Shown: positions 40,459 to 44,762 of the stretch, one piece after another
Position numbering within the stretch: the first letter of the stretch is position 1
Layout: every line of letters starts with the position of its first letter
NCBI GenBank assembly: GCA_902537665.1
Contig: CACBCE010000001.1
Location: forward strand, 1-64,000
Reading direction: 5' to 3'
Length of the DNA: 64,000 nucleotides
Source of the DNA: an uncultured Pelagibacteraceae bacterium
GTDB taxonomy: Bacteria > Pseudomonadota > Alphaproteobacteria > Pelagibacterales > Pelagibacteraceae
The notes under the pieces: model-generated
What the model saw: only the letters and a program-made list of their open reading frames with translations
Database searches by the model: none
What the model was told of the DNA's origin: nothing
Translations under genes and position numbers: made by a program

Positions 40459-43400
40459 ATGAGCGAAAAACTATTAGTTCCTGATATAGGTGACTTTGAA
40501 AATGTGGAGGTCATTGAATTACTTGTCAAAGAAGGTCAAAAAATTGCTAAGAACGATCCAGTAGTTACTATAGAAAGTGATAAATCGAGTGTTGAAATAC
40601 CTTCAACTTTATCAGGCGTAATTGAGACAATAAAAGTTAAAGTAGGTGATAAAGTTTCAAAAGGTGATTTAATTCTTAATATTTTAGGGTCAAATGCAGA
40701 ACATTCTACAACGAAAACTATTCCAAAAGACACTGAAAATTTGATTAAAGAAGCAGAAAAATCGTTAGAAAAAAAACAAGAGCAAATCATCCATGCAAAT
40801 AATATTGAGAAAAAAAAACCAGAAATAATTCAAGTAGTTAATGACAGCGATATTGATCCATTAGAAACTAATGAATGGTTAGAGTCACTCACTGCAGTAA
40901 TTGAGAAAGATGGAAATCAAAGAGCCCATTATTTAATAAAGGAATTAATAAATAAAGCTTATATGGAGGGTGCAAATATCCCCTATACACAAAACACACC
41001 CTATATAAATACAATTCCAGTAAATGAAGAGAAAAAATCAAACGGTGATCAAAATATTGAGAGAAGAATTCGGTCATTGATAAGATGGAATTCCGCAGCA
41101 ATGGTTGTTCGTGCTAATAAAAAATTTCCTGAACTTGGAGGACATATTGGAACATTTGCATCAGCAGCTACGCTTTATGATGTGGGGATGAATCATTTCT
41201 GGAGAGCAAAAAATAATAAGTTTGGTGGAGACTTAATTTACTTTCAAGGACATAGCGCTCCAGGTATGTACGCAAGGGCATTTCTTGAGGGAAGACTTAA
41301 TGAAAAACAATTAGATAGTTTTAGACAGGAAGTTAATCCAGGAGGTTTATCATCTTATCCACATCCTTGGTTGATGCCAAATTTTTGGCAATTTCCCACA
41401 GTCTCAATGGGTTTAGGACCAATGTTAGCTATTTATCAAGCAAGATATATGAAATATTTGATAAACAGGGGTCTCATAAAAGATGAAGGACGAAAAGTGT
41501 GGGCTTTCTTAGGAGATGGGGAAATGGATGAACCTGAGTCTTTAGGAGCAATTGGTTTAGCAGCTAGGGAAAAATTAGATAACCTAATATTTGTGATCAA
41601 TTGTAACCTTCAAAGATTGGACGGGCCTGTAAGGGGTAATGGAAAAATTATACAAGAATTAGAGGGTATTTTTAGAGGAGCTGGATGGAATGTTATCAAA
41701 GTAATTTGGGGTTCTTATTGGGATCCGCTATTGGCCAACGATAAAACTGGTCATTTAATTAAAGTTATGAATGAAACTGTAGATGGTGAATATCAAGCAA
41801 TGAAAGCAAGAGATGGAGCTTATGTGCGAGAAAAGTTTTTTGGTAAGTATCCTGAAACTAAAGAGTTAATCTCAAGCCTTTCAGACAAAGATATATGGAG
41901 ATTGAATAGAGGTGGACACGATCCTCACAAAGTTTTTGCAGCTTATGATAAAGCTTCAAAAAATATTGGAAGCCCGACAGTTGTGATTGCTAAGACTATA
42001 AAGGGTTATGGAATGGGCAAAAGTGGAGAGAGTGTGAATACAACCCATCAAACTAAAAAATTAGATATAGACGATTTGATGTATTACAGAGATAGGTTTG
42101 ATGTTCCTCTAACTGATAAACAGGTGCAAAATATTGAATATTATAAGCCAGACCAAAACTCACCTGAAATAAAATATATCAAAGAAAGAAGACTTCAATT
42201 AGGAGGATTTATCCCAGAGAGAACTACTTACGCAAAAACCATTAAAGCCCCTCCGAAAAACATTTTTGACAATATGAAAGAGTCTACAGGTAAAAAAGAA
42301 ATGTCGACTACTATGGCATTAGTAAGAATGCTTACTAATCTACTGAGAGATAAAAATGTTGCCTCAAGATTAGTACCAATCATTCCTGATGAGGCGAGAA
42401 CATTTGGTATGGAGGGTTTTTTTCAAAAAATTGGTATTTATGCTCACGAAGGACAAAAATATGAACCTGAGGACTCAGCACAATTAAGTTCTTATAGAGA
42501 AGAAAAAAGCGGACAAGTTTTGGAGGAAGGAATTAACGAGGCAGGTGCAATGTCTTCATGGATTGCTGCAGGCACTTCGTACACAAATCATGATATTGAA
42601 ATGATCCCTATCTATCTTTTTTACTCAATGTTTGGTTTTCAAAGAATAGGTGATTTTGCTTGGGCAGGAGCAGACAGTCAATCAAGAGGGTTTTTAATTG
42701 GAGCCACTGCAGGGAGAACAACATTAGCAGGAGAAGGTTTACAGCACCAAGATGGACATAGTCATTTAATGGCATCAACTATTCCAAACTGTAAGTCTTA
42801 TGACCCAACATTTCATTATGAACTAGCAACAATCTTTAGAGAAGGATTGAAAAGAATGCATGAGAAGAAAGAAAATATTTTTTATTACATTACAACAATG
42901 AACGAAAATTATCCTCATCCTGCTATGCCAACTGAAAAATCATGCGAAGAAGGCATTTTAAAAGGAATGTATAAAATTAAAGAATTTAACAAATATAAAA
43001 AAACTAAAATTCAATTTCTAGGATCAGGCACAATTTTAAGAGAAATGATAGCTGGTGCGGAGATATTACAAAAGGAATATCAAATTGATAGTGAAGTTTG
43101 GAGCGTAACTAGTTTCAATGAATTAAGAAGAGATGGCTTAGAGGTAGAAAGATATAATTTGTTAAATCCTGAAAAAGAACCAAAAAAATCATATGTTGAA
43201 AGCTGTTTAGGCAAAACTGAAGGTCCAATTTTGGCCGCATCAGATTATATGAGAATGAATTCAGACCAAATTAGACCTTATATTAACAAGAGCTTTTACT
43301 CATTAGGAACAGATGGATTTGGTCGAAGTGATACCAGAAAAAATTTGAGGAAGTTCTTTGAGGTTGATAAAGAACATGTTGTTGCATATGGATTAAGTGT

Positions 43401-43497
43401 TTTATCTAAAGAACAATTAATTGCATCTAAATACGCTCAAGAGGCAATAAAGAAGTATCAAATCGATAAAGATAAACCAATGCCGACAAAATTATAA
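40459..43497 (+). CDS. aceE: Pyruvate dehydrogenase E1 (homodimeric AceE) with fused N-terminal lipoyl domain
   Basis: Thiamine-diphosphate E1 of the pyruvate dehydrogenase complex. Residues 1-75 form a lipoyl domain with the lipoyl Lys42 in IESDKSSVEIP. A charged linker follows to about 130. Then comes a full-length AceE (start DIDPLETNEWLESL; RIRSLIRWNSAAMVVRA; GGHIGTFASAATLYDVG; ThDP motif GDGEMDEPES to NCNLQRLDGPVRGN). The total of 1012 residues equals an AceE of about 887 plus a lipoyl module. The lipoyl segment is nearly identical to that of the next gene, aceF, in DNA as well as protein. The stop shares a base with the aceF ATG. Confidence 0.95.
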   Translation: MSEKLLVPDIGDFENVEVIELLVKEGQKIAKNDPVVTIESDKSSVEIPSTLSGVIETIKVKVGDKVSKGDLILNILGSNAEHSTTKTIPKDTENLIKEAEKSLEKKQEQIIHANNIEKKKPEIIQVVNDSDIDPLETNEWLESLTAVIEKDGNQRAHYLIKELINKAYMEGANIPYTQNTPYINTIPVNEEKKSNGDQNIERRIRSLIRWNSAAMVVRANKKFPELGGHIGTFASAATLYDVGMNHFWRAKNNKFGGDLIYFQGHSAPGMYARAFLEGRLNEKQLDSFRQEVNPGGLSSYPHPWLMPNFWQFPTVSMGLGPMLAIYQARYMKYLINRGLIKDEGRKVWAFLGDGEMDEPESLGAIGLAAREKLDNLIFVINCNLQRLDGPVRGNGKIIQELEGIFRGAGWNVIKVIWGSYWDPLLANDKTGHLIKVMNETVDGEYQAMKARDGAYVREKFFGKYPETKELISSLSDKDIWRLNRGGHDPHKVFAAYDKASKNIGSPTVVIAKTIKGYGMGKSGESVNTTHQTKKLDIDDLMYYRDRFDVPLTDKQVQNIEYYKPDQNSPEIKYIKERRLQLGGFIPERTTYAKTIKAPPKNIFDNMKESTGKKEMSTTMALVRMLTNLLRDKNVASRLVPIIPDEARTFGMEGFFQKIGIYAHEGQKYEPEDSAQLSSYREEKSGQVLEEGINEAGAMSSWIAAGTSYTNHDIEMIPIYLFYSMFGFQRIGDFAWAGADSQSRGFLIGATAGRTTLAGEGLQHQDGHSHLMASTIPNCKSYDPTFHYELATIFREGLKRMHEKKENIFYYITTMNENYPHPAMPTEKSCEEGILKGMYKIKEFNKYKKTKIQFLGSGTILREMIAGAEILQKEYQIDSEVWSVTSFNELRRDGLEVERYNLLNPEKEPKKSYVESCLGKTEGPILAASDYMRMNSDQIRPYINKSFYSLGTDGFGRSDTRKNLRKFFEVDKEHVVAYGLSVLSKEQLIASKYAQEAIKKYQIDKDKPMPTKL

Positions 43498-44762
43498 TGT
43501 CAAAGAAAGATATAAAGGTTCCAAATATTGGTGAATTCAAAGATGTGGAAGTCATCGAAGTTTTAATTAAAAAAGGTCAAAAAATAAAAAAGAACGATCC
43601 ACTAATAACTATAGAAAGTGATAAATCAAGTGTGGAAATACCATCCTCTGATGATGGAACCATAATTTCTTTGAATGTTAAAATTGGAGACAAGGTATCG
43701 GAAGGTGATAAAATTATTGAAATTGAAAGTGAGAAAGAAATAAAAGAAACAAGTGTACGAGAATTACCAAAAAGTCAATTACCAAAAGAAATAAAAAAAG
43801 ATAATGTAAAAAAAACCAATGAGACTGAAAATATAATAGTTAAAGATTTTTCTACAAAAGCTTCTGCTTCACCAAAAGTTAGAAAATTTGCGAGAGAACT
43901 TGGAGTTAATATCAACAAAGTCCCAGGTAGCGAAAGGCAAGGTAGGGTTACCGAGAGTGATGTAAAGTTATTTGTTGCAACTAAATCTGATAAAAGTTTC
44001 AAAGATCAAAATACAACTGAACAAAAAATTGAACTAGAGTATTCTCATTCAGATTTTGGAGAAGTAGATATTAAAGACATTCCCAGAGTGAAAAAGTTGT
44101 CGTCTAAATATTTAATGAACTCTTGGACAAAAATTCCTCATGTAACCAATCATGATGAAGCTGATATAACTGAATTAGAGGAATTTAGAACTTCTCTTAC
44201 GGACGTATATACTGGTGAAAAAAAAAAAATTACACCATTAGCTTTCATCGTAAAAGCATTAACAACATCATTAAAAAAATTTCCAAATTTTAATACCTCA
44301 ATCGATCAAATTGAAAATGGCAAAATGACTGTTAAAAAGTATTATCATGTTGGTATAGCAGTGGATACACCACATGGTTTGATGGTTCCTAAATTAAGAA
44401 ATGCAGATAATAAAAATATTTCTTTAATAAGCACAGAATTAAAAAAAATCAGTCAGCAATGTAGAGATCTTAAAATTGATAAAAAAGAGTTATTCGGAGG
44501 TTCTATGACGATAACTAGCCTAGGGGGAATTGGGGGATCTTTTTTTACCCCAATTATAAATTATCCTGAAGTTGCTATTTTAGGAGTAGGAAGAGCAGAA
44601 AAAAAACAAGTATTTATGGATGGAAAATTTGTAACGCGTACTATGTTGCCACTTTCCCTATCTTATGATCATAGAATTATTGATGGTGCAGAGGCAGCTC
44701 GATTTAATAATGATTTAAAAGAAAATCTTGGTAAAAATTTTGCTTATAAGTTAGCCGTTTAA
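43497..44762 (+). CDS. aceF: Dihydrolipoamide acetyltransferase (E2)
   Basis: Core acetyltransferase of the pyruvate dehydrogenase complex. The 421-residue protein has one lipoyl domain (Lys43 in IESDKSSVEIP), a flexible linker, a peripheral-subunit-binding domain (ASPKVRKFARELGVNINKVPGS), and the catalytic domain with YDHRIIDGAEAARF. It has a single lipoyl domain, unlike the three in E. coli E2; the extra one has moved to E1. No E3 (lpdA) follows; a permease gene comes next. Confidence 0.95.
   Translation: MSKKDIKVPNIGEFKDVEVIEVLIKKGQKIKKNDPLITIESDKSSVEIPSSDDGTIISLNVKIGDKVSEGDKIIEIESEKEIKETSVRELPKSQLPKEIKKDNVKKTNETENIIVKDFSTKASASPKVRKFARELGVNINKVPGSERQGRVTESDVKLFVATKSDKSFKDQNTTEQKIELEYSHSDFGEVDIKDIPRVKKLSSKYLMNSWTKIPHVTNHDEADITELEEFRTSLTDVYTGEKKKITPLAFIVKALTTSLKKFPNFNTSIDQIENGKMTVKKYYHVGIAVDTPHGLMVPKLRNADNKNISLISTELKKISQQCRDLKIDKKELFGGSMTITSLGGIGGSFFTPIINYPEVAILGVGRAEKKQVFMDGKFVTRTMLPLSLSYDHRIIDGAEAARFNNDLKENLGKNFAYKLAV

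Follow-up and report, generated by a model that had tools for sequence, protein, structure and literature searches.

The pyruvate dehydrogenase (PDH) complex of SAR11 very probably carries its swinging lipoyl arm on E1: a single ancestral fusion joined an AceF-type lipoyl domain (LD) to the homodimeric E1, AceE, and thereby made the LD of E2 redundant. We are also largely confident that in some SAR11 lineages the complex operates without any E2 LD, the only arm being covalently attached to homodimeric E1 and reaching the E2 core via the non-covalent contact between E1 and the peripheral subunit-binding domain (PSBD) of E2, a state that evolved repeatedly after the one fusion. The swinging lipoyl arm of PDH normally sits on E2, and SAR11 are the most abundant bacteria of the ocean.

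The fused AceE and its lipoyl domain

The window is a stretch of 64,000 nucleotides from an uncultured Pelagibacteraceae bacterium; related contigs are named Pelagibacteraceae or Candidatus Pelagibacter, i.e. SAR11. Positions 40459-43497 on the forward strand hold a single intact ORF of 1012 aa with zero internal stops, followed by aceF. The features discussed below are these:

40459..40683, + strand: N-terminal LD of AceE, aa 1-75 (Pfam PF00364, Biotin_lipoyl, 5-75, E=1.3e-18)
40582-40584, + strand: predicted lipoyl-lysine Lys42 of the AceE LD, in the motif ESDKSS
40684..40845, + strand: flexible linker of AceE, aa 76-129 (54 residues), rich in Lys, Glu and Ile, not in Ala and Pro
40846..40977, + strand: AceE segment matching E. 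coli AceE 6-49, the PSBD-binding N-terminal region (by alignment and homology)
40846..43497, + strand: catalytic part of homodimeric AceE (E1p), complete, aa 130-1012 plus stop (TIGR00759)
43497-44762, + strand: aceF (E2p), 421 aa, whose ATG begins on the last base of the aceE stop (1-nt overlap, TAATG)
43497..43727, + strand: sole LD of E2, with Lys43 at 43623-43625 (PF00364, 5-76); deleted in many relatives
43866..43967, + strand: PSBD of E2 (PF02817, 124-157)
44076..44729, + strand: acetyltransferase catalytic domain of E2, with the motif SYDHRIIDG (PF00198, 194-411, alignment)

The initial annotation had described an intact LD (Lys42) fused to a full-length homodimeric AceE, and the profile matches within this one ORF agree: PF00364 covers residues 5-75, and the AceE model TIGR00759 covers residues 130-1010 with 1427 bits against a curated cut-off of 860, spanning profile positions 4-883 of 885. 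As the usual AceE has no LD, this is a variant architecture. The domain shows the characteristics of PDH-type PF00364 members, a DK motif at the beta-turn and an all-beta fold, which AlphaFold2 places at residues 2-76 with a block pLDDT of about 78-89. The NF008854 model of E1-beta with an LD matches the window AceE in its LD part alone (21 bits against a cut-off of 454), and no full-length match to it was found in the SAR11 genomes checked.

The remainder of the protein closely resembles E. coli AceE. Residues 130-1009 and E. coli AceE 6-883 align over their full length, the AceE part is 55% identical (Foldseek) and matches E. coli AceE structures, and the segment that follows the linker was also aligned to PDB 9h1n chain C, 130-173. 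With a mostly constant offset of 123, E. coli H106, H142, Y177, D230, N258 and N260 correspond in the alignment to window H229, H265, Y300, D353, N381 and N383, and K392, E401, H407, D549, E571, Y599 and H640 to K515, E524, H530, D672, E694, Y722 and H763. All 13 of these ThDP/Mg and reductive-acetylation residues fall in columns that are invariant or at least 90% conserved in an alignment of 55 AceE sequences. Variants of His407 and Glu401 in E. coli almost abolish the overall reaction, and H407A does so in reductive acetylation as well (PMC6270654). The linker, whose structure the initial annotation had singled out for prediction, lies mostly below 50 pLDDT in the AlphaFold2 model (under 50 at 79-90 and 101-128); across SAR11 it varies in length from 48 to 71, with a dN/dS of about 0.28.

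Several observations suggest that the AceE LD is functional. The lipoylation motif ESDKSS is present in 107 of 107 distinct SAR11 AceE LDs. At loci with one LD on each protein, dN/dS is 0.093 for the AceE LD, 0.085 for the E2 LD and 0.024 for the AceE core, values that are comparative only because dS is near saturation; on this comparison the two LDs appear to be under equal purifying selection. LipA is encoded in six of six genomes that are at least 90% complete and lipB in five of the six (lipA of G650 is split and below the cut-off). Two of nine genomes, G004 (96% complete) and G035 (86%), gave no match for lipB; lipA is present in both, and octanoyl transfer there may rely on another ligase. 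The AceE LD thus appears to be a real, conserved and lipoylation-competent domain and is probably a substrate carrier. The lipoyl group on E1 may plausibly be acetylated by E1 itself.

Distribution and ancestry of the fusion

The survey of AceE architectures that the initial annotation had proposed found the fusion throughout the SAR11 family and in none of the AceEs of other Proteobacteria whose sequence was fetched, longest-frame candidates included. Within the family it occurs in 80 of the 80 best-matching related SAR11 contigs, among them the isolate HTCC9565 and many single-cell genomes, and in the single-contig genomes G012, G267 and G158. AceE was found in 179 of 198 sampled family genomes, representing 10 of 10 genera, and its LD was confirmed in representatives of nearly all ten. 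Among 147 distinct SAR11 AceE ORFs, drawn from overlapping sources and so not independent, 142 have the LD in frame; three of the remaining five are cut by contig ends, in the other two a frameshift puts the LD into the ORF immediately upstream, and none of the 147 shows a true loss of its LD. A frameshift separates the LD ORF from the AceE ORF at L220 (reverse strand, around 2065-2400) and L112, in two draft genomes; it is probably a sequencing error, and possibly a programmed or real split. In G737 the break between the two ORFs coincides with a poly-A run of the Lys-rich linker.

Beyond the family, AceE was found in 0 of 25 sampled genomes of the order's sister family (f2; G037-G060 and G814), and a full-length E1-beta with an LD in none of six f2 genomes checked. 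AceE exceeded the cut-off in 8 of 289 genomes sampled across the class, three of the eight being SAR11, and in 110 of 299 genomes of the phylum sample. Long AceE frames (960-1654 aa) from other Proteobacteria were considered as LD fusions and rejected: they contain no LD, and their length comes from a frame open upstream. When the LD columns are left out of the AceE alignment, the resulting tree places the fused SAR11 AceEs in one fully supported clade. The fusion therefore has one origin, which probably lies before the radiation of the Pelagibacteraceae.

The source of the domain can be traced in LD trees, which rest on 74 columns. In the first, AceE LDs fall with the AceF-type LDs, and a 100/100 split sets them apart from alphaproteobacterial E1-beta and PdhC LDs; in the second, SAR11 AceE and AceF LDs form a clade against other AceF LDs (98/91). 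Read most simply, the trees mean that AceE received a copy of the LD from the AceF of SAR11 itself. It might be supposed instead that the domain came from the LD of an alphaproteobacterial E1-beta, part of an ancestral heteromeric E1, and moved onto a newly acquired AceE, since SAR11 is alphaproteobacterial and LD-bearing E1-beta is common in that class. But the AceE LDs stand apart from the E1-beta and PdhC LDs and join the SAR11 E2 LDs in these 74-column trees; on the LD tree we reject this candidate and give it very little credence. The first tree also suggested that genus g360 may have regained its E2 LD from the AceE LD (98/88); the second, where all SAR11 E2 LDs lie on one side of a weakly supported branch (61/0), does not suggest it. 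In L226 and L229, from alphaproteobacteria with an LD-bearing E1-beta, the LD of E1-beta clusters with that of the E2 encoded in the same genome, suggesting that LDs have repeatedly been copied or gene-converted between E1 and E2.

Part of SAR11 encodes a second, LD-less AceE-like protein of 884-902 aa, about 52% identical. Besides the two examples given here, it occurs in L223, L110 and L111.

L096:1922-4597, - strand: second AceE-like protein
L222:2909-5614, + strand: second AceE-like protein

It forms a separate clade, distant from the fused AceE, with a single long branch (L106) as the sole connection. The AKGDH_not_PDH exception model scores it slightly above aceE, yet under that model's own cut-off, and no AceF lies directly downstream; the protein possibly uses a different 2-oxoacid substrate. 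Up to five aceE copies have been described in SAR11 IIIa (PMC10030771).

Lipoyl domains outside E2 are known from E1-beta of Zymomonas, E3 of Neisseria and Alcaligenes, and PdhD of Mycoplasma hyopneumoniae (PMC7873978). The background given in the initial annotation is therefore right that the usual AceE lacks an LD and too narrow in confining LDs to E2 and E3, since E1-beta LDs were already on record. The E1-beta of Zymomonas mobilis has an N-terminal LD (Neveling et al. 1999, as cited in PMC7873978), and we confirmed full-length E1-beta with an LD in five alphaproteobacteria (NF008854). This system (NF008854/PRK11892) resembles that of SAR11 in having an LD at the N-terminus of a PDH E1 polypeptide, in the same class, with an E2 that also bears an LD; it differs in being a heteromeric alpha2beta2 E1 with the LD on the beta chain, whereas SAR11 has a homodimeric AceE and an LD of a different lineage. 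The E3 (lipoamide dehydrogenase) enzymes of Neisseria meningitidis and Alcaligenes eutrophus carry an LD (PMC7873978), and in M. hyopneumoniae the PDH LD is placed in PdhD (Matic 2003, in the account of PMC7873978). As in SAR11, the LD there sits on a peripheral subunit rather than E2, but the recipient is E3 instead of E1; domain scans found no LD on E3 in SAR11.

The AceE-AceF PDH of E. coli (TIGR00759, TIGR01348) shares with SAR11 the homodimeric AceE, the PSBD, the AceF core and the aceE-aceF order. Its AceE has no LD and its AceF three, whereas SAR11 has one or two on AceE and two, one or none on AceF. Actinobacterial OdhA, an E1o with an E2-like domain, is likewise an E1 polypeptide with an E2-derived domain. 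OdhA has an acyltransferase-like domain on E1o and borrows lipoyl groups from E2p (PMC8146983); SAR11 AceE, in contrast, carries the LD and borrows the acyltransferase. We found no prior report in the open-access literature of an LD on homodimeric AceE with E2-LD loss; the SAR11 aceE paper notes multiple aceE copies and does not mention lipoyl (PMC10030771). It is possible that an earlier description exists in a subscription journal or as an unannotated database architecture.

Repeated loss of the E2 lipoyl domain

SAR11 lineages differ in the number of LDs on AceE and AceF. One on each (1,1) is the condition of the window and most Pelagibacter; genera g5 and g365 have two on AceE and one on AceF (2,1), g361 and part of g365 have one and two (1,2), and many lineages have one and none (1,0). 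The initial annotation gave the window E2 just one LD, and indeed it has one PF00364 match, together with the PSBD and the catalytic core. Because this E2 retains its LD, the lipoyl arm in the window's own genome (81% complete) is shared by AceE and E2 and is not on AceE alone.

The AceF of g361 and g365 has a second LD without the lipoyl lysine (EDEENA, EDEESA, EDDNSS), by its sequence a decaying or repurposed pseudo-lipoyl domain:

L212:4841-6379: AceF with Lys-less second LD
L225:2816-4348: AceF with Lys-less second LD
L217:5167-6720: AceF with Lys-less second LD

In the (1,0) lineages AceF is about 300 aa long; its ATG follows the aceE stop immediately and lies only a few residues ahead of the PSBD, for example MSKKITKKSSASPKVRKFARELG, and these loci lie mid-contig. 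The PSBD and catalytic domain are kept, as PF02817 and PF00198 matches in L022 and L207 attest. The same two proteins have no PF00364 match and score 332 bits with TIGR01348 (PDHac_trf_long) against a cut-off of 552. The SYDHRxID (HxxxD) motif is present in nearly all rows of the E2-core alignment, and a structure model of the LD-less AceF matches E2 catalytic cores. AceFs of LD-less size make up 23 of about 135 in a 148-genome family sample, ten of the 23 having been read in sequence; they span five genera and include the 99% complete G658. E2 without an LD occurs in about 17-25% of sampled genomes, and most genomes with such an E2 are single-cell or metagenome assemblies.

Whole-genome scans of two of these genomes, G004 (96% complete) and G623 (95%), identified the AceE LD, the SucB LD and BCCP as the only PF00364 matches, and SucB and the LD-less AceF as the only E2-type acyltransferases (PF00198); no PDH lipoyl domain besides the AceE LD was found in either. 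Because of this, we infer that the E1-borne LD is a working and sufficient swinging arm. The SucB LD could in principle serve PDH in trans in such genomes; E1p normally discriminates against E2o LDs.

On the AceE tree the presence of the E2 LD requires at least 8 changes, of which starred branches force 7; on the E2-core tree it requires 10, of which supported branches force 6. The number of separate losses is approximate and possibly inflated because SAR11 recombines heavily. A single clade of all LD-less E2s is rejected (AU p 9e-61). Recombination would not, however, produce the asymmetry that the AceE LD is never lost whereas the E2 LD is lost repeatedly. The E2 LD thus appears to be dispensable in SAR11 and to have been lost many times, and the AceE LD never.

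Proposed mechanism, alternatives and implications

Sequence shows that the fusion exists and is conserved, that its LD is under selection, that E2 has repeatedly lost its own LD, and that two genomes with an LD-less E2 lack any further PDH LD; the lipoylation of Lys42 and the catalytic route we infer. LipB and LipA would lipoylate Lys42. The ThDP site of AceE would then reductively acetylate the lipoyl group so tethered, either in cis or across the AceE dimer, and the acetyl-dihydrolipoyl group would swing on the flexible linker of about 50 residues to the E2 core, where the acetyl group would pass to CoA; the dihydrolipoyl arm would then go to E3 for reoxidation. In E. coli AceE the first 55 or so residues are mobile and bind the E2 PSBD (NMR, PMC6270654). 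Because the SAR11 linker joins AceE directly before the corresponding PSBD-docking segment, an E1-borne LD would come close to the position of an E2-borne one. The non-covalent E1:PSBD contact may thus stand in for the covalent link between LD and PSBD, the chain LD-linker-PSBD-core being replaced by LD-linker-AceE segment:PSBD-core. The E2 LD would therefore be redundant and could be shed repeatedly. After that, some lineages would have kept the E2 LD, with one on each protein, and some would have lost it to leave PSBD and core only; others would have come to carry a second LD, either on AceE or, in degenerate form, on E2.

The initial annotation had proposed that the AceE LD compensates for an E2 with a single LD, which would make the E2 LD the main carrier and the AceE LD merely extra capacity. 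The window and most Pelagibacter, where both LDs are intact and equally constrained, are compatible with such an auxiliary role. But a single-LD AceF is unremarkable among the other alphaproteobacteria with an AceE, so that there is nothing to compensate, and it is the E2 LD that is repeatedly deleted while every lineage keeps the AceE LD. These points do not support the compensation idea, and we regard an auxiliary arm as rather improbable. A structural or regulatory role, in docking to E2 or E3 or in lipoylation sensing without acetyl carriage, could draw on the degenerate Lys-less second LD of some E2s, which is decaying or doing something else; yet all 107 AceE LDs retain the lipoyl Lys within an unchanged motif, and where E2 has lost its LD we see no alternative PDH carrier, which makes this role very unlikely.

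The initial annotation had also named an assembly error or frameshift joining two genes as the observation that would overturn it, and the E2-LD losses could similarly be truncated ORFs. A break between the LD ORF and the AceE ORF does exist in two genomes (G737, G032). The same fusion nevertheless runs through the family, in isolates, single cells and closed genomes; because closed genomes carry it, it is not an artefact of assembly. The LD-less E2s, for their part, start with an ATG before the PSBD, directly after the aceE stop and mid-contig. The chance that either is an artefact is negligible.

Our preferred reading, an E1-borne arm that made the E2 LD redundant, has consequences for annotation and enzymology. 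The LD-less AceFs of 300 aa are complete genes, not fragments, and their annotation should be corrected. SAR11 also offers a set of natural constructs, E1 with an LD and E2 with and without one, that bear on whether the LD must be covalent to the E2 core or whether PSBD docking is enough. Textbooks base substrate channelling in 2-oxoacid dehydrogenase complexes on the swinging arm of E2; in SAR11, the sea's most abundant bacterial group, this arm appears to have been removed repeatedly from E2 and left on E1.
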